Positions 1,275-12,726 of a stretch of 33,112 nucleotides of DNA are shown in pieces (position 1 is the stretch's first letter; the number at the start of each line of letters is the position of its first letter). The notes beneath the pieces are model-generated. The model ran no database searches. It had not been told where the DNA came from and worked only from the letters and a program-made list of their open reading frames with translations. The stretch is from Candidatus Adlerbacteria bacterium (GTDB lineage Bacteria > Patescibacteriota > Minisyncoccia > Phycocordibacterales > SBAW01): the NCBI GenBank assembly GCA_903900775.1, contig CAIUOD010000012.1, positions 1 through 33,112 on the forward strand, read 5' to 3'. The position numbers and the translations under genes are program-made.

Positions 1275-1345
1275 GGGCCCATAGTAAAGTGGTATTACGC
1301 GTCATTCGCATTGACGAGGCGGGAGTCCGATTCTCCCTGGGTCCA
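1275..1345 (+). tRNA. tRNA-Ala(CGC)
   Basis: GGGCCCA/TGGGTCC acceptor with G3:U70 alanine identity pair, anticodon arm CGTCA-TTCGCAT-TGACG, T arm GGGAG-TCCGATT-CTCCC. Confidence 0.93.
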
Positions 1346-2843
1346 CTCTGGTAGACAAAGGTGACAGAATTAGCTCTTTCGCCTTGAAAACACTTGATAC
1401 TTCAGGAGTTCCAAATATCTGGCCGTTAAAGACGATACCGGAGGGGAATTGGAACCACTGGAGCTTCGTTTGTGTTGTAATTCCTGACTTTTTCCATACC
1501 GTGCTCGGTCGCTCCAGATACTCTGATGCAAAAGCCACGGCGTCCTCTGGAGACCCCACATCGCTTGTCTGCGTGATGAGGGTTGTCCGTATTTCTGCCT
1601 CCGTCTTTTCTATGCGTGCCAGCTCTCGTTGAAGCACGGCATCACTCAGGACGCCTTTTATATTCTTGTGCACGAGTGCGGTCTGCTCCTCGGCCAGTTC
1701 TTTGAGACGGACTTCTAGTGCGTGAATCTCTTTCTGTTCATCCACGGTAGCGTCGTGGAATTTCTCGCGCACTAAGCGCTTGAGCTTCGCGATGTCAGAG
1801 CTCTCAAAACGATAGGTATCCATCTTAAACGCAAATTGTCGTTGAAGCTCGTCGCGGTCGTAATTCCCCTTTGCGCCATTGAATCGGTAGGAAGGATATT
1901 TCCCTCGGGCAAAACTACCAGTCAGTTTCAATCCGTCTGGATTGAATACAAAGCGTCTCAGCGGGAACTCGGGATTATCCGTCTTGTATTGCGATACTTT
2001 GTGCCCCTTATTCTTAAGAACTCGCTGGGCTTGTGCGAACAGATCGTCACCTACTATAGGTTCGAATGTACCCTTATGATGTTCTCCAAACTTTTCAATC
2101 CAACCCGTATACAGTTCGTTTCGGAGCATCTTGTAGAAATAGCTTTTTGCGACAGGTTCGCCATTCTTTTTTAGCAGTCCTTCTTTGCGCATCATCCGCC
2201 AAACCTCATCGGTTGGATAGGTCGCAGCCGCGACCAATTCAAACGCTCGCTTAACAAGCGGGGACATCTCGCTCGGCGCAATTGTGGCCTTGTCTCCAAC
2301 TCGCACGTTGGCATAGCCAACAGGGGCGGCCCAGACGTAACGTCCAGAGCGTACTGCTTCGAGCATGCCGTTCGAACACCGCTCAGCGCGGACATCGTTA
2401 TCGAACTGTGCAATGTTTGCCATCGTGTTTTCCATAAAGCGTCCTGCGGGATTATTTTCAAAGAATTCGGTAGTGGATTTTATTTCTACACCGTACCGCT
2501 TCAGCAAAATGCGGAGTTGGCTGTAATCGTCGGTATTGCGCGAGAGACGGTCAATTTTATACACAATCACTGCAGAGATTGCGCTTTTCTTTTGGGCACA
2601 AAAACCGAGCATCTTTTGGAGTTGTGTGCGGTCTGCGGTTTTAGCACTTTCGCCGCGCTCGATGAATACCCCGTCCTCGGGTATCACAAAGCCCGCTTTG
2701 TTTGCATACTCTCGGCAGGCTTTCTCTTGAGTTATTAGAGAGTTGCCCTCGTCAGCTTGCTCCATCGTGGAGACGCGCACGTAGATAACAGCTCGCTTGT
2801 TATTTTGCTGTATGTTTGGTTTGTGCATTCCTTTTTTGCTCAA
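1302..2843 (-). CDS. Large serine recombinase / site-specific integrase 1
   Basis: N-terminal resolvase fold AVIYVRVSTMEQADEGNSLITQEKACREYANKAG, ...VYKIDRLSRNTDDY, plus Recombinase domain (APVGYANVR) and coiled coil. C-terminus is encoded antisense through the tRNA-Ala 3' half. Confidence 0.93.
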   Translation of the reverse strand: MSKKGMHKPNIQQNNKRAVIYVRVSTMEQADEGNSLITQEKACREYANKAGFVIPEDGVFIERGESAKTADRTQLQKMLGFCAQKKSAISAVIVYKIDRLSRNTDDYSQLRILLKRYGVEIKSTTEFFENNPAGRFMENTMANIAQFDNDVRAERCSNGMLEAVRSGRYVWAAPVGYANVRVGDKATIAPSEMSPLVKRAFELVAAATYPTDEVWRMMRKEGLLKKNGEPVAKSYFYKMLRNELYTGWIEKFGEHHKGTFEPIVGDDLFAQAQRVLKNKGHKVSQYKTDNPEFPLRRFVFNPDGLKLTGSFARGKYPSYRFNGAKGNYDRDELQRQFAFKMDTYRFESSDIAKLKRLVREKFHDATVDEQKEIHALEVRLKELAEEQTALVHKNIKGVLSDAVLQRELARIEKTEAEIRTTLITQTSDVGSPEDAVAFASEYLERPSTVWKKSGITTQTKLQWFQFPSGIVFNGQIFGTPEVSSVFKAKELILSPLSTRVDPGRIGLPPRQCE

Positions 2844-3928: not shown

Positions 3929-3934
3929 TATAGT
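3929..3934 (+). promoter_or_regulatory. Putative -10 box of RNA A
   Basis: TATAGT 7 nt before ACAACTGAATA; the same arrangement (TATATT, 8 nt, ACAACTGAATA) precedes RNA B. Confidence 0.6.
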
Positions 3935-3941
3935 ACGAAAG

Positions 3942-4125
3942 ACAACTGAATAAAGGGCCTAACCCGTAGCTTTCTGCGGCAAGGTCGAAAACCGGTAAGA
4001 GGTGGAAAACCCATCTTGTAGGGCTACTCTTACCGGTCTCCGCGGGAAACTGCGGATGGACGGCGGAAGCCGTCACCTACGAGGTGGGCTTTGCGGTTTT
4101 ATGCCAAGCTGCCCCGTATTTAGCA
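3942..4125 (+). ncRNA. Structured RNA A, leader of a secreted-protein operon; same family as RNA B
   Basis: 5' ACAACTGAATA; P1 GGCCT/AGGTC around an inner hairpin; P2 ACCGGTAAGAG/CTCTTACCGGT; P3 TCCGC-GGGAAACT-GCGGA; P4 GACGGC-GGAA-GCCGTC; 3' GGGCTTTGCGGTTTTA hairpin and AGCTGC/GCAGCT hairpin. Confidence 0.75.
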
Positions 4126-4141
4126 GCTAGTAGAAACTAAG

Positions 4142-4804
4142 ATGAAAAAGTATTTAGCGCTCGGGGCGGTACTCGCAGTTTTGATACCTAGCGTAGCGTT
4201 TGCACAAACAACGGGCCTGACCTCGACACAAGTAAATGCCATCATTGGACTTCTTCAAGCATTTGGTGCGGACCAGAGCATTATAAATAATGTTGAGATT
4301 GACCTAGGGTATAGTGGGGGGACTAATACTACTATCGAAGGTACAAATACATCAGCTCAGAACAATCAGACTCAAATATTGAGTCAGTTAAATGAATGGC
4401 AGCAGCAAGAGCAGATTGACCAATCACACCTTACAGTATGGCAAAATGAACTTGCCACCCAGGACACGCAATGGAATTCTTTGTGCGCTGACTTAGGGAA
4501 TAATTCTCAACCCGTTGCTCAAGTGAACAATGGCGGCGGAATGAACCAGGGAGCACTGGGAGGTGCTACCACCGATTATGTCTCCGGCGCAACGGCTGGG
4601 GAAGCCTCTCAACTTGCCCTTCAACAAGCTCAAAATACTCAACAACAGACGGCAGTAAATATCGCCCTTAATACTCAAGCCCTGCAGTGCAGCGGTGTAG
4701 CCCAAGGAATGACTACTGATGGGCAATACATATCTTCCATACAAAACAAAATCACTCAAGACCAAAACGAAATAGACTACTTAGAAACTCTCGAAAACCA
4801 ATAG
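4142..4804 (+). CDS. Secreted protein with signal peptide
   Basis: MKKYLALGAVLAVLIPSVAFAQ signal peptide; LTSTQVNAIIGLLQAFGADQSIINNVEIDL segment; Q/N-rich helical remainder. Confidence 0.85.
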   Translation: MKKYLALGAVLAVLIPSVAFAQTTGLTSTQVNAIIGLLQAFGADQSIINNVEIDLGYSGGTNTTIEGTNTSAQNNQTQILSQLNEWQQQEQIDQSHLTVWQNELATQDTQWNSLCADLGNNSQPVAQVNNGGGMNQGALGGATTDYVSGATAGEASQLALQQAQNTQQQTAVNIALNTQALQCSGVAQGMTTDGQYISSIQNKITQDQNEIDYLETLENQ

Positions 4805-4806
4805 CC

Positions 4807-5175
4807 ATGATTATTCTCAATCTAAGTACTTTGGGCGAGTTGTTATTGATTGTGGCGTTATGTCTGGCTTTCGGCCCAGCTGTATCAGAGCTCCTAGGAA
4901 AACTCGGAGCAAAAGTAATAATAGATTGGATGTTCGGCGGAGAGAATCCAACACCAGCTCAAAGAAAGAATTTCAAAGCAGTGGCAATTGTCTTAGCTTT
5001 GGTCGGGCTATTCTGCTGGCTTATAGGAGACAGCAAGACCAATTACAACGGCCTGTTCATTCTCCTCGGATATATACTTTTCTTTCTGGCCTACATACGC
5101 TATCACCGTTCGAATGGCCATGCCGAACTAAAAAAACAAGAACCGGGGGGTAGTAAACAGACGGAGAATAAATAG
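4807..5175 (+). CDS. Membrane protein (about 3 TM)
   Basis: Hydrophobic segments ELLLIVALCLAFGPAVSELL, AVAIVLALVGLFCWLIG, GLFILLGYILFFLAYI. Confidence 0.75.
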   Translation: MIILNLSTLGELLLIVALCLAFGPAVSELLGKLGAKVIIDWMFGGENPTPAQRKNFKAVAIVLALVGLFCWLIGDSKTNYNGLFILLGYILFFLAYIRYHRSNGHAELKKQEPGGSKQTENK

Positions 5176-5176
5176 C

Positions 5177-5380
5177 ATGGACACTTTAATCGTAATAGGA
5201 ATAATCATAGCCGTAATACTTTACGGTATTTTAAAAGAGACAATAAACAACGGCGACGAAGCATATAATCGGGCGATCAGGGAGAGAAATGAAGCCTTGA
5301 TAAGAAAGCAAGAAAATGAAGGGTATTACGATGAAAGCAGATTTGTAGAAGCGGCGAAAGAGAAGGAGACATTCCTATAA
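5177..5380 (+). CDS. Small membrane-anchored protein
   Basis: N-terminal TM MDTLIVIGIIIAVILYGIL followed by a charged tail; starts 2 nt after the previous stop codon. Confidence 0.7.
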   Translation: MDTLIVIGIIIAVILYGILKETINNGDEAYNRAIRERNEALIRKQENEGYYDESRFVEAAKEKETFL

Positions 5381-5431
5381 CCTGCTCATGGAGCTCAACC
5401 AAGTTAGAGCGCTTTCCCAACGATTATAAAT

Positions 5432-5625
5432 CGCTGTTACTAGCGAGAACTCCGCATCTGTATTCTGACTGTTTTTAGCAGATATTCCCTGTTATTTCCC
5501 TGTTAGCAGGGGACGGGGTTGGCGCTCCCCATAGCTGTTATCGTGCTGTTAGCAGCTATCCTGTTACCAGGAAAGGAACTGATTTGTTTCCGCGCTGTTT
5601 TCCCACTGTTCTCAGCAGGCGCTCC
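5432..5625. repeat. Array of short CTGTTA-loop inverted repeats
   Basis: CGCTGTTACTAGCG, CTGTTTTTAGCAG, CCCTGTTAGCAGGGG, ATAGCTG..CAGCTAT, TCCTGTTACCAGGA, CTGTTCTCAG within about 190 bp. Confidence 0.65.
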
Positions 5626-5652
5626 ATGCAGAGTTCTAATTCATTCTGGTAG

Positions 5653-7326
5653 TCATACACGCGCAAAAGAACCCCACGGTATAGGGCTTTCTTTTTCACC
5701 TTTTAATATCTCTACGAGGCGATTACACTCTAAAGCAAAGGAGTTCCAGAATATAGAACCGCAGTCCACCGAGTCATAGTCAGAGGCCACAAGTTCCTCA
5801 AAAAGCCTTGTGACGCTTAGCTCGTCGCCAGTTCGATAAGCATCTTTTTTATCGTAGGGTAATCTCGCTTCGAAAAGGAAATAAAACAGTCGGTGTTTTT
5901 CTCGGACGTCTACACTTTTCCAAACATCATAAGGACTTTTGAACAATCCCATAACTTTGCCCAGGGCAGTTCGATAAGGCACATCTAGGTCAGCTTTACT
6001 AAGCGGCATTTCGAGCCCATCCAGTTCGTTGGTGGCTTCTTCGATCTGCGATTCGTAAGCTCTTCGGACGGCTTCAGATTGTGCCTGGTGGGCGAGATCA
6101 GCCAATCCAGCTACTTTCTCCTTTAAGACCTTCCTGCGCTGTTCTAGGCGCACTTCTTGCTCTGCTAGGGCTTTTATTTCCTGTCTCCATACCCGCTCAA
6201 AGGCCAACTGAATGACCGGCTCGACTTTTATCTTAAGACGGTTGCGTCTTACGAGAGTTTCGAAATTATCTTCCACGTCTTTTTTGCGAAGGGTCTTATG
6301 GCGCAAAGGGCACCCCTTGCTGTTTTGGCAGTAGTAGTGTGCGTAGGTATGCTTTTTATGCCACGCTCCAGTAAGCGGCTTGTTGCACCCTGGGCAGAGA
6401 AGCAGGCCACGCAAGGGGAAGTCATCAGAAATATCCAGACGTTCCCGTGTGCCGGCAACAGCTTTCTTCATGCGGCCTTGTATGCGCTCAAAAGTCTCGC
6501 AGGAAATAAGAGCCTGATGATGCCCTCTGCGTCTGCTAACTTCCCATGGCAAATACTCAATGTCGCCACAGTAGAATGGGTCTTGCAACATCTCTTTCAC
6601 TCGGTTTAGTGCTCGTTCGGGCGAACAGCTTTTACCCCAAAAGCTACGCTCAACAAAATATTTAGCCACATCAATCTGCCGTAGAAACTTCCCAGAGGCG
6701 AAACCCTCAAGAGCGATGCGGATAACCTCAGCGTCTTTGTTGGGGGTGGCTAGTTTGCCATGAACGGAATCTGACACCATGTCATAGCCTCTTTTGCTAG
6801 AAAAAGCCCAATAGCCACGCTCTAGACGAGCTTTTGTTTTTTGAATAACTTGGCGGCGATTTTGCTTGCGCTCGAGCTGAGCCTGTCCGGCAAAAATTAA
6901 CTCGGCAAACTCTCCCTCTGGGCTATCATCGAAATTATGATTAAGACAACGCAGAATAACATCGCGCCCCCTGAAGGCATCCTTCAACTTGAAGTGAAAA
7001 ATAAAATCGCGAGCGAAGCGCTTTAGATCATCAAAAACCACCACAAATTTTTTTTGAGGATGGGCATCAATATATGCCAGTAGCTCTCGCATAGCCGGTC
7101 GATTCATAAAATCGCCGGCTCCAGTAAAACTGTCCCGAAAGGTAAACAGATAGGGGACGCCGATAGATTGTAAATCCTTTACACAGCGCCCGTCTTGGCT
7201 CTGTAGACCAGAACCCTCAGTTTCCTGCTTTTTACTCGACACACGGGCGTACACAAGTCCCACTCGCCCCTCAAAAGGATTTACTATATCTGCCCGCTGG
7301 TATTTAACGCTTTGACTGTTTTGCAT
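5653..7326 (-). CDS. Large serine recombinase / site-specific integrase 2 with zinc ribbon
   Basis: VGLVYARVSSKKQETEGSGLQSQ..., FDDLKRFARDF, GYDMV; zinc ribbon LRGLLLCPGCNKPLTGAWHKKHTYAHYYCQNSKGC. Confidence 0.93.
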   Translation of the reverse strand: MQNSQSVKYQRADIVNPFEGRVGLVYARVSSKKQETEGSGLQSQDGRCVKDLQSIGVPYLFTFRDSFTGAGDFMNRPAMRELLAYIDAHPQKKFVVVFDDLKRFARDFIFHFKLKDAFRGRDVILRCLNHNFDDSPEGEFAELIFAGQAQLERKQNRRQVIQKTKARLERGYWAFSSKRGYDMVSDSVHGKLATPNKDAEVIRIALEGFASGKFLRQIDVAKYFVERSFWGKSCSPERALNRVKEMLQDPFYCGDIEYLPWEVSRRRGHHQALISCETFERIQGRMKKAVAGTRERLDISDDFPLRGLLLCPGCNKPLTGAWHKKHTYAHYYCQNSKGCPLRHKTLRKKDVEDNFETLVRRNRLKIKVEPVIQLAFERVWRQEIKALAEQEVRLEQRRKVLKEKVAGLADLAHQAQSEAVRRAYESQIEEATNELDGLEMPLSKADLDVPYRTALGKVMGLFKSPYDVWKSVDVREKHRLFYFLFEARLPYDKKDAYRTGDELSVTRLFEELVASDYDSVDCGSIFWNSFALECNRLVEILKGEKESPIPWGSFARV

Positions 7327-7513
7327 AATTTTTAAGCTCTGCTCGTATCACGCTCCTACAGAATGACTCGATGTATTCTAAACGTTGAATGATTTGTTCG
7401 GCCGTGCTCTCGTGATCATTCAACAGTTTTCTGTATTCAACAACCGTGAGTACGCTCTCTCTGGTAGAGAGTATATCAGCGCCCTTCCCGTTAAGTTTTT
7501 GGGCACAAGCCAT
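7304..7513 (-). CDS. Short ORF upstream of and overlapping integrase 2
   Basis: MACAQKLNGKGADILSTRESVLTVVEYRKLLNDHESTAEQIIQRLEYIESFCRSVIRAELKNYAKQSKR; overlaps the integrase start by 23 bp. Confidence 0.65.
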   Translation of the reverse strand: MACAQKLNGKGADILSTRESVLTVVEYRKLLNDHESTAEQIIQRLEYIESFCRSVIRAELKNYAKQSKR

Positions 7514-7557
7514 CTATCCAGAATGGCAGAAGGCACGTTGACAGTTGTTGAGGTTGA

Positions 7558-8232
7558 TTAACCCCTTAAATACGTAGGGTTTATTCGAACCTTTTTGGTA
7601 GTAAACTCGAGAAAATCAGACACCCCAGTCTCAAGAGTCACGGTTTTGTTAACGGCGAGCGCCGCGTCGTAGCACGCATGTTGGGAGATCGTTTCTTCCT
7701 CCCATCCGCCGCCGAACCAGTCTTCAAGTATTTCATCGACATTCCAGTACCGGCTAGGTTCTTTGCTCAAGGTTTTAAGTAACCGGGTAGGATTATTCTC
7801 CGACCCTGTCGTTTTTGATAATTGGACACCAACCTCATCAAATCTAAGCATTCCGGTCTCCGGGTCGAAACTTTTATAAAACCCCGGCCCAAGCGCTTTC
7901 TCAAACTTTTCTAGCGGGAAAAAAGTCAATCCTTTGACATATACTTCGCCACCCTCTCGGTCAATTCTAGGGGGTACTCTTCCCAATACCGCAATACCAG
8001 TAGAGATAGGGTTCTCGTCGCGGGTAGTCCTATAGGCTAGCGAGAGCGCCGTGATTGCTTCCTCGATCTCTTCCACCGCGAGTCTCGATCTAATTGATAA
8101 CTCTCTCAATGACATAGAACCTTGCAAAAAGTTGCGTTGCTTAAAGGCTTCAAAGACGAGCCGAAGATTTTTGCGTTGTTGGTCAGGAAGGGCCACAAAG
8201 AAAGCCCTTAGCGGATCGTTCTGGCTTGCCAT
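7558..8232 (-). CDS. Hypothetical protein, possible HTH regulator
   Basis: Long ORF with an HTH-like N-terminus MSLRELSIRSRLAVEEIEEAITAL; divergent from the RNA B operon. Confidence 0.65.
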   Translation of the reverse strand: MASQNDPLRAFFVALPDQQRKNLRLVFEAFKQRNFLQGSMSLRELSIRSRLAVEEIEEAITALSLAYRTTRDENPISTGIAVLGRVPPRIDREGGEVYVKGLTFFPLEKFEKALGPGFYKSFDPETGMLRFDEVGVQLSKTTGSENNPTRLLKTLSKEPSRYWNVDEILEDWFGGGWEEETISQHACYDAALAVNKTVTLETGVSDFLEFTTKKVRINPTYLRG

Positions 8233-8274
8233 TTATTAACTATACAACGAGCTGTCCGTCTGTCAGGGGCGTGA

Positions 8275-8280
8275 TATATT
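8275..8280 (+). promoter_or_regulatory. Putative -10 box of RNA B
   Basis: TATATT 8 nt before the ACAACTGAATA shared with RNA A. Confidence 0.6.
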
Positions 8281-8288
8281 AGGGCGGT

Positions 8289-8478
8289 ACAACTGAATAT
8301 ACCTGGCCTAAACTAGCGGCTCTAGCCCTAGCATGGCCTTAAATCGACGTGAATATAAACCCCGTTATCAGGGCGTTCACGTCGTTGCATGGGGAAACTC
8401 ATGCAGAGGCCGCAAGGCCTTCCTGGTAGCGGGCTTTGTGTTTTAAAAATACACAAGGCCACTGCCAAATTAGTGGCC
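8289..8478 (+). ncRNA. Structured RNA B, leader of a secreted-protease operon; same family as RNA A
   Basis: 5' ACAACTGAATA; P1 GGCC/GGCC with CCTAAAC..CATGG; P2 CGACGTGAA/TTCACGTCG; P3 TGCATG-GGGAAACT-CATGCA; P4 AGGCC-GCAA-GGCCT; GGGCTTTGTGTTTTA hairpin; final GGCCACT/AGTGGCC hairpin followed by TAATTTTT. Confidence 0.75.
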
Positions 8479-8490
8479 TAATTTTTGTAT

Positions 8491-9900
8491 ATGAAAAACG
8501 GAAAATATATTGTGTCGACGGCCCTTATCGCCTTCGTCCTCGCACCATCAGTAGCATTCGCCTCGTGGTGGAATCCGCTCTCATGGTCATGGACATCATT
8601 TTTGAGCGGCAAGAGTCCGGCAGTACAGCAGGTGCCACCCCCATCTCAGACTCCTCCAACCTCAACAAATCTCAACACTCCATCCGCAGGAGTAGTTGCC
8701 CCTACAGCTACGCCCATTTCTGTAAAAAATACAACGGAGAAACTTGCTCCTCTTTCTAACGCCAAGATCATTGCAAAAGTTAAGCCGGCGATTGTATATA
8801 TCGACGTGGAAGATGGCGACGCGAGTGGGATGATACTGCAATCCGCCGCGACCTACAGCTACATTCTCACTAACGCTCACGTAGTTGTCGGAGTATCGAG
8901 TGCCACGATTACCCTCCAAAGTGGGAAATCAATCAGCGCCACTGTTGTAGGCAGGGACGAAAACACTGACCTCGCCATACTTAAAATCTCCGCTGGCAAT
9001 CTGCCAACAGTAGTTCTGGGCAACTCAGATACTTTGGCGCAAGGAGATAAGGTCTTTGCGCTCGGCTACCCGTTCGGCATCGGTGGGGATGCTGTCTTTA
9101 CTGACGGCATTGTATCGAAGACAAAAGCCAGCACGAGTGCAGGGCAAACATACATCCAAAACACTGCTGAAATACACCCCGGCAACAGCGGTGGTGCGCT
9201 TATCGACCAATATGGACAGGTAGTGGGGGTAACAAGCGCCAGCTACAGCGATCAAAAAGTTCAAGGTGTCACGCTAGGGGAAACTATTAAGTTGGCTATA
9301 CCAATAAACACAGCCAAGGCACTCATTCCTCAACTTGAGAGTGGCCTAAGTGTTGTTGTCCCAGTCGCCACACCTGCACCCACGCAAGCCGCTGCTCCAT
9401 CCACACCAGCTCCCACAGAAGCACAGTGCCAACAGGCGGGACAAGACGCATACGATCAGCACATGGCGTCTGTCGTAGGCATCAGTACTGACGACCCAAC
9501 CGTTCAATCCTTATTGGCCGACATTCAATCGAACGAGGATCGTATCAAATCACAGCATGACAGTTCCGTGGCTCAAATACACGCATCAAATGACCCGCTC
9601 ATAGCAGCGGCAAAGGATAGCGATGCGAAGCTACAGGCATCGTTTCAAACCTCTGCAGCACTAAGTGGAAGACCTGCCTCGGCGGTACAACAGGTACCCC
9701 CGTCTCCCGTAATCGCTCAAATCCAAGCTCAAGAGCAGACACTTATTGCTCAAGCCGACGCGAACTATCGGTCCGCCTATAGCCAATGGGAGGCGCAGAA
9801 ACAAAAAGTCCTTACGGATGTTGAAAACAAAAAGACCGCTGCCGAGTCGGCCGCAAATGCCGCGAAGAAAGGAGCATATGCGGGCTGCATGGCCCAATAA
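8491..9900 (+). CDS. Secreted trypsin-like (HtrA-type) serine protease with C-terminal coiled coil
   Basis: Signal peptide MKNGKYIVSTALIAFVLAPSVAFAS; catalytic motifs TNAHVV (H), DENTDLAILK (D), HPGNSGGAL (S). No PDZ domain seen. Confidence 0.9.
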   Translation: MKNGKYIVSTALIAFVLAPSVAFASWWNPLSWSWTSFLSGKSPAVQQVPPPSQTPPTSTNLNTPSAGVVAPTATPISVKNTTEKLAPLSNAKIIAKVKPAIVYIDVEDGDASGMILQSAATYSYILTNAHVVVGVSSATITLQSGKSISATVVGRDENTDLAILKISAGNLPTVVLGNSDTLAQGDKVFALGYPFGIGGDAVFTDGIVSKTKASTSAGQTYIQNTAEIHPGNSGGALIDQYGQVVGVTSASYSDQKVQGVTLGETIKLAIPINTAKALIPQLESGLSVVVPVATPAPTQAAAPSTPAPTEAQCQQAGQDAYDQHMASVVGISTDDPTVQSLLADIQSNEDRIKSQHDSSVAQIHASNDPLIAAAKDSDAKLQASFQTSAALSGRPASAVQQVPPSPVIAQIQAQEQTLIAQADANYRSAYSQWEAQKQKVLTDVENKKTAAESAANAAKKGAYAGCMAQ

Positions 9901-12098: not shown

Positions 12099-12162
12099 AA
12101 ATATCTAATATACGTCAAGAGCCGAACTCTTATTGCGTTGAGAGATCTTGAGAGTAGAATAT

Positions 12163-12726
12163 ATGCTGATGCAGAAGGAGCTTCTAAACTCAGCTTATAT
12201 AGACAATACTAACCTCTACAAGGGATTAGAAACTGAGGGCTTCCGTGTGGACTATGTCAAGTTAAGGACTTATTTAACTGAACGGTATGCTGTTAAAACT
12301 GCCTACATTTTTATTGGATTTCTACCAAATAAGGCTGACTTATACCGACGACTTCAAGAGCAAGGGTTTACTCTCATTTTCAAACCGACTGTCCCAAACA
12401 GTACTGGCACTAAAGGAAATTGTGATGGAGAACTTATATTGCAAGCCACTGTAGATTTTTATGAAAAGAAATACACAAAAGCCGTCATAGTAACGAGTGA
12501 TGGTGATTTTGCATGCTTAGTCAATTTTCTTATAGAAAAAGATGCCTTGGATTCAGTTCAAAGTCCTACCTATAAAAAATGCTCAACCCTCCTTACCAGA
12601 AGTAAGGCTCGGATAGTGTTTTTACCAGAAGTCGCAAATTCAGTGAGTAGGCCGCTGACTCAACAAGAGTTAGAAGTCATAAAGATCAAAATTGAGGAGA
12701 AAGAAAAAGCAAAAAATCCCAACTAG
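12163..12726 (+). CDS. NYN-domain (LabA/DUF88, PIN-like) protein
   Basis: AYIDNTNLYKGLETEG, YIFIGFLPNKADLYRRLQEQGF, KGNCDGELILQATVDFYEKKYTKAVIVTSDGDFACLVNFL: acidic residues at NYN/PIN positions. Confidence 0.8.
   Translation: MLMQKELLNSAYIDNTNLYKGLETEGFRVDYVKLRTYLTERYAVKTAYIFIGFLPNKADLYRRLQEQGFTLIFKPTVPNSTGTKGNCDGELILQATVDFYEKKYTKAVIVTSDGDFACLVNFLIEKDALDSVQSPTYKKCSTLLTRSKARIVFLPEVANSVSRPLTQQELEVIKIKIEEKEKAKNPN

Follow-up and report, generated by a model that had tools for sequence, protein, structure and literature searches.

Both structured RNAs in the stretch of Candidatus Adlerbacteria DNA analysed here (33,112 nucleotides, contig CAIUOD010000012.1, referred to as the window) are LOOT RNAs, i.e., members of the already catalogued bacterial family RF03000, and comparison with 183 LOOTs with flanks from Patescibacteria genomes suggests that LOOT probably acts in cis, as a 5′ leader with a riboswitch-like mode of action in which two competing folds set the expression of the gene behind it. 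The comparative evidence supports the leader position, a pseudoknot, and alternative pairings; from these we infer switching inside the cell, its control by a ligand or some other signal, and the direction in which it works.

Family Assignment and Relation to Rfam

The Rfam 15 covariance model of LOOT matched RNA A at 3956..4074 (+) with 72.4 bits (E = 6e-12) and RNA B at 8305..8421 (+) with 77.1 bits (E = 4.7e-13), the gathering score of RF03000 being 46.4 bits. Each RNA covers model positions 1-121 of 121 and is thus a full-length match, with P1 to P4 arranged as in the Rfam structure and with the hallmarks of the family, namely P1 with a receptor-like loop, P2, P3 with GAAA, and P4. The original prediction, made from the two window sequences, had described a conserved skeleton whose elements are all present in both RNAs and in the order given (TATAnT, ACAACTGAATA, GGCCTAA(A/C)C opening P1, P2, P3 with GAAA, P4, GGGCTTTG(C/T)G, and a last hairpin). 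It was wrong in calling the family unassigned, and a match to an Rfam family was one of the outcomes that it had itself named as counting against it.

LOOT, reportedly introduced in a 2017 paper by Weinberg, carries the Rfam 15 type “Gene; sRNA.” Since then, Rfam 14 has featured it as an example family (PMC7779021), it has been used to illustrate cross-covariation (PMC7657543), and it is listed among the structures improved with R-scape, with two pairs added in Rfam 15 (PMC11701678). Since the Rfam model stops at P4 (position 8421 in RNA B), it contains neither the 5′ element nor the pseudoknot strand nor the expression platform described below, and it draws the apex of P2 as a local hairpin, where we find a pseudoknot strand. 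The pseudoknot, the platform, and the cis role appear to be new relative to the Rfam entry.

Core Fold, Pseudoknot, and Tetraloop Contact

In an alignment of 108 LOOT matches (alignment A2), 92.7% of the cells of a 40-pair structure pair, compared to 64.7% after shuffling and at most 45.5% when the structure is slid, and both sides change in 38 of the 40 pairs, although these counts favour that structure, its pairs having been identified on this very alignment. They strongly support the earlier claim of a selected, covarying structured RNA. Among the top covarying pairs are those of a pseudoknot of about 13 bp, in which a segment 3′ of P4 covaries with the apical loop of P2. In RNA B coordinates, 8362-8367 pairs with 8427-8432 (standard pairs in 0.95-0.99), a weaker signal joins 8369-8370 to 8424-8425, and the two pseudoknot helices pair in 96.3 and 84.6% of cells respectively. 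Independently of the pair register, a LOOT's own two strands pair at -22.5 kcal/mol, compared to -12.8 kcal/mol for swapped strands (z = -25).

The pseudoknot is predicted in both window RNAs, with 13 bp and 3-6 further pairs. In RNA A, its 5′ strand in the P2 apical loop (4006..4022, +) would pair with 4076..4092 (+), beyond the end of the Rfam model, at a predicted -26.5 kcal/mol. In RNA B, 8354..8373 (+) in the P2 apical loop would pair with 8421..8440 (+) at -25.5 kcal/mol, and the latter strand is also the 5′ arm of an antiterminator-like hairpin; covariation points to the same strands in both RNAs. What was originally drawn as an AAA(A/C)CCC..AGGGC interior in P2 and a separate CCT..GGGCTTTG hairpin is better described as the two strands of one pseudoknot. 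This 3′ hairpin (“P5,” CCUGG..GGG), which we also drew at first, was rejected, with 63% standard pairs versus 88% for the pseudoknot. Taken together, LOOT has the conserved, covarying, aptamer-like fold expected of a riboswitch.

All 103 P3 loops are GAAA, whereas of 108 P4 loops just 41 are GNRA and 12 are UUCG. The P1 loop reads CCUAA(A/C)..(C/U)AUGG with a covarying A-C/C-U exchange. The canonical 11-nt GNRA tetraloop receptor is CCUAAG/UAUGG; LOOT resembles this motif in its P1 loop and in the unvarying GAAA of P3, and departs from it in the P1 sequence, where the exchange of A-C for C-U covaries. It is plausible from these sequences that the GAAA loop of P3 docks in the receptor-like loop of P1. 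The docking of P4 into P1 proposed before was rejected because the P4 loop is too variable, P3 being the more likely docking loop.

Leader Position and 5′ End

Where the flanks allow the comparison, the next ORF is co-oriented with LOOT at 163 of 174 loci (sign test 7e-36) and starts a median of 57 nt downstream of P4, and the upstream gene lies on the opposite strand at 114 of 176 loci. By position, LOOT is thus the 5′ leader of a gene, as a riboswitch would be, which suggests a cis-acting element rather than a free small RNA.

Ahead of the core, the sequence ACAAYUGAAUA is strongly conserved, and a -10-like box lies 4-10 nt upstream of it in 82 of the 103 leaders whose 5′ element the pattern recognises, compared to 32 expected by shuffling. 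This conservation, together with the box, makes ACAAYUGAAUA the likely 5′ end of the transcript, which fits the end predicted earlier at ACAACUGAAUA. In the window, this element is identical in RNA A (3942..3952, +), where it is the probable transcript start, and RNA B (8289..8299, +), as well as strongly conserved in relatives. The -10-like boxes are TATAGT in RNA A (3929..3934, +), which is backed by relatives and was not recovered by a strict promoter scan, and TATATT in RNA B (8275..8280, +). A missing Shine-Dalgarno sequence was rejected as a special LOOT trait (17.8% versus 18.3% in background ORFs).

Expression Platforms

Two kinds of alternative pairing recur between the LOOT core and the start codon. 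The first engages the pseudoknot 3′ strand, i.e., the 20 nt after P4, which pairs with its own downstream segment at -13.9 kcal/mol versus -10.7 kcal/mol when swapped (z = -15; -12.6 with one LOOT per genome; dinucleotide shuffles give p = 3e-17 and GC-matched swaps p = 2e-11). The second engages P2. Ahead of the AUG, 41 of 157 leaders carry the P2 5′ strand in a second copy (AAAWCC and the stem, 11 nt or more, no more than one mismatch), compared to 1.0 expected from swaps; the copies comprise 29 distinct sequences and mostly end 1-6 nt from the AUG. The P2 3′ strand can therefore pair there instead, and its pairing with the pre-AUG sequence gives z = -18.6, or -15.4 with one LOOT per genome, a version that answers the coarsest form of the lineage structure which the swap controls share in part. 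The control pairing of the P2 5′ strand with the same region gives z = +1.5, and the P2 3′ strand gives null results in control windows (coding +0.3, upstream +1.3).

The P2 stem (-19.3 kcal/mol) is about as strong as the copy duplex (-18.7 kcal/mol). Just outside the stem base, 18 differences between copy and P2 gain pairing with the P2 3′ strand and 2 lose it; part of this excess is expected since P2 ends where its own pairing ends, and the predominance of gains speaks against mere duplication. Terminator-like hairpins, most of them rightly placed, occur in 11 of the 157 leaders, RNA B included, compared to 0.6 expected, and the leaders' own sequences show weak hairpin signals in the AUG region (z = -5.9) and around the copy (z = -3.7). 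Counted strictly, 47 of the 157 leaders have the first kind of platform, 41 the second, 12 both, and 81 neither, and the latter may use weaker or other platforms. A platform mutually exclusive with part of the aptamer, as riboswitches have, is thus found in the set as a whole and in RNA B.

In RNA B, an alternative hairpin (8424..8467, +; 8424-8429 with 8462-8467 and 8432-8441 with 8451-8460) is predicted at -23.8 kcal/mol (z = -5.5 versus shuffles). One of its strands is also used by the pseudoknot and the other by a terminator-like hairpin, and it can coexist with neither. The terminator-like hairpin (8456-8479, -14.5 kcal/mol) has an AATTTTT tail (T8482-8486, the whole spanning 8456..8486, +) and is followed by the start codon at 8491. 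As modelled, RNA B is a textbook transcriptional layout of antiterminator-like and terminator hairpins. RNA A has a possible terminal hairpin (AGCUGC/GCAGCU, 6 bp, 4107..4128, +) ahead of the AUG at 4142, and an alternative pairing at -15.0 kcal/mol (rank 0.038); its segment 4075-4141 folds no better than shuffles, and its platform is weakly supported. The final hairpin that had been predicted before the start codon thus holds for RNA B, as an intrinsic-terminator-like hairpin, while the one in RNA A is without a T-run.

Downstream Genes

A hydrophobic N-terminal stretch is found in 66% (107/163) of the LOOT-led proteins versus 19% (295/1548) of the other ORFs in the same loci (p ~6e-34), a background that includes some spurious ORFs because ORFs were called mechanically. 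Methyltransferase hits in Pfam among 150 downstream proteins comprise 9 N6_N4_Mtase, 4 D12, and 1 C5, compared to one such hit among the listed top Pfam families of 132 neighbouring ORFs. Other downstream families are zinc ribbons, staphylococcal nuclease, trypsin-like proteases, superinfection-immunity proteins, and Ltp-like lipoproteins. In the window, RNA A precedes a 220-aa protein (4142..4804, +) without a Pfam match above cut-off, and RNA B a 469-aa trypsin-like (Trypsin_2) protease (8491..9900, +), both with a signal-peptide-like N-terminus. The best reading of these sequences is a regulon of surface, secreted, and DNA-modification genes, the breadth of which suggests a general signal rather than the product of one pathway.

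Distribution and Truncated Copies

The source genome (755,718 bases, 97% complete) has two LOOTs, and neither the Rfam model nor an extended model (R1, at E<=1) detected any in it beyond RNA A and RNA B. LOOT is patchy, being present in 49 of 147 relatives and in 83 of 380 genomes from a phylum-wide sample. A single genome can have as many as seven copies, and no LOOT was found in the 14 control genomes searched. In a genome collection, the exact 5′-end pattern matched mostly by chance, and the 13 loci confirmed as LOOT bear Patescibacteria names (e.g., Taylorbacteria, Kaiserbacteria, Zambryskibacteria, Uhrbacteria, Peregrinibacteria) or just “bacterium.” LOOT as a phage element was rejected: IMG/VR yielded 80 loci by the exact 5′-end pattern, a scan that detects only LOOTs carrying it, with LOOTs found by model in one contig only. 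Contig IMGVR_UViG_3300024999_000712 (L303), with one full and one truncated LOOT, is either viral or a misfiled bacterial contig.

In genomes of ~1 Mb, LOOTs cluster (G495, G257, G396, G195, G474, G022), 11 of 16 same-contig spacings being <20 kb. Contigs C25, C40, and C88 of another genome (G241) start or stop exactly at a LOOT, as expected if near-identical copies broke the assembly.

The extended model also revealed truncated leaders, referred to as mini-LOOTs, that consist of a promoter-like box, an ACAAYUGAAUA-like element, and P1, and then mostly reach an AUG within a few tens of nt (L056:8222-8354; L421:863-1057, 1761-1955, and 2659-2835; L303:433-567; L038:8270-8412). The last of these has P1 with a P2 remnant, and the one in L056 has the P2 5′ sequence directly ahead of the AUG, as if the part between two repeats were missing. 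Across the 20 genomes searched, each mini-LOOT has a full LOOT no more than ~3.3 kb away. The region L421:725-3997 comprises four direct-repeat units (spacings of 898, 898, and 1177 bp) in which a LOOT or mini-LOOT leader is followed by a gene (two identical NYN-like, one BRO-N-like, and one trypsin-like); the first two units may be an assembly duplication. An NYN-like gene in the window (12148-12726, +) resembles the genes behind these mini-LOOTs, and no LOOT or mini-LOOT is detectable in front of it. Two large serine recombinases, at 1302-2843 (-) and 5653-7326 (-), flank RNA A in the window, and the former overlaps a tRNA-Ala gene (1275-1346), as if integrated there; a site duplication was rejected, as the tRNA end does not recur in the window as an exact 18-nt match.

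Proposed Mechanism and Alternatives

We propose that the leader begins at ACAAYUGAAUA and that P1 to P4 and the pseudoknot make one compact fold, probably aided by docking of the P3 GAAA loop in P1. In the competing fold, the pseudoknot 3′ strand would pair with downstream RNA and break the compact fold, and many leaders would also pair their P2 3′ strand with the pre-AUG copy of the P2 5′ strand. Whichever fold wins would decide termination, as in RNA B, or access to the start codon, as in leaders with a copy. RNA B would be OFF in the compact fold, with its terminator free to form, and ON with the alternative hairpin acting as antiterminator. In some leaders, e.g., G016_C2, G084_C8, and G027_C18, the copy lies in the loop of a hairpin that covers the AUG; this hairpin would open once the copy pairs with the P2 3′ strand, so that the compact fold would again be OFF. 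In copy leaders without an AUG hairpin, the copy pairing may instead block the start, with a sign opposite to that of the terminator type. A metabolite, an ion, a protein, or temperature are candidates for what drives the exchange of folds.

LOOT resembles pseudoknotted riboswitches with expression platforms, e.g., the fluoride class (PMC13273304), in having a compact pseudoknotted domain, one strand of which joins the antiterminator/terminator choice, and in covariation that extends into the platform. It is unlike them in its diverse regulon and in the frequent platform where the sequence ahead of the AUG duplicates a strand of an aptamer stem. We offer more tentatively, and would not be surprised to see it fail, the broader proposal of LOOT as a new riboswitch class that is widespread in the Patescibacteria (about one fifth of the sampled genomes) and governs DNA methyltransferases along with surface and secreted proteins, commonly via a start-codon leader copying one aptamer strand to compete for the other; “riboswitch” here describes the apparent mode of action, and class membership awaits a ligand.

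Against a switch stand the diverse downstream genes, which do not point to one metabolite, the filing as sRNA in Rfam, the weak platform of RNA A, the copy leaders without an AUG hairpin, whose sign may be the reverse of that in the terminator type, and the 81 leaders without a strict platform. The gene diversity and these 81 leaders would suit a constitutive structured leader, acting for example in mRNA stability or start-site presentation without signal-dependent switching, in which the alternative pairings are folding intermediates. We consider this rather unlikely, as a balanced competing duplex that tracks P2 through 29 sequences would hardly be kept unused, and as antiterminator/terminator pairs such as that of RNA B argue against it.

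Somewhat less probable still is a trans-acting small RNA with an incidental gene behind it, for which the terminator at 8456-8486 would mark the end of the RNA in RNA B. The Rfam type, this good terminator between RNA B and the start codon, and the several copies per genome are consistent with such an RNA, but co-oriented genes follow at a short, near-fixed distance at nearly all loci, terminator-like hairpins are confined to 11 leaders, and the pre-AUG copies and downstream pairings tie LOOT to the start codon. Finally, the pre-AUG repeat could be a relic of LOOT gain or loss by direct-repeat recombination, LOOT being part of a mobile cassette and not a switch, in line with the mini-LOOTs near full LOOTs, the clustering of copies, and the two recombinases in the window, but this is the least likely of the three, as the copy extends no further than the stem and its AAAWCC flank, differs from P2 outside the stem base mostly by gains of pairing, and no flanking repeat or recombinase common to the loci is established.

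Significance

We file the two RNAs under LOOT, an established family, and attach new features of structure and regulation to it, the more interesting content being what had been drawn as a separate P2 interior and 3′ hairpin, plus the sequence up to the start codon. Ligand searches need the correct full-length construct, orphan riboswitches being known to fail in constructs that are too short (PMC10043782), and the P2-strand copy ahead of the AUG offers a simple, mutable handle on the mechanism. With its 3′ part restored, an RNA catalogued as a truncated “sRNA” becomes a testable regulator. To our knowledge, gene regulation in the Patescibacteria (CPR) is almost unexplored; the genes that LOOT would regulate may, given their frequent hydrophobic N-termini, face the host cell, and they also include DNA methyltransferases.
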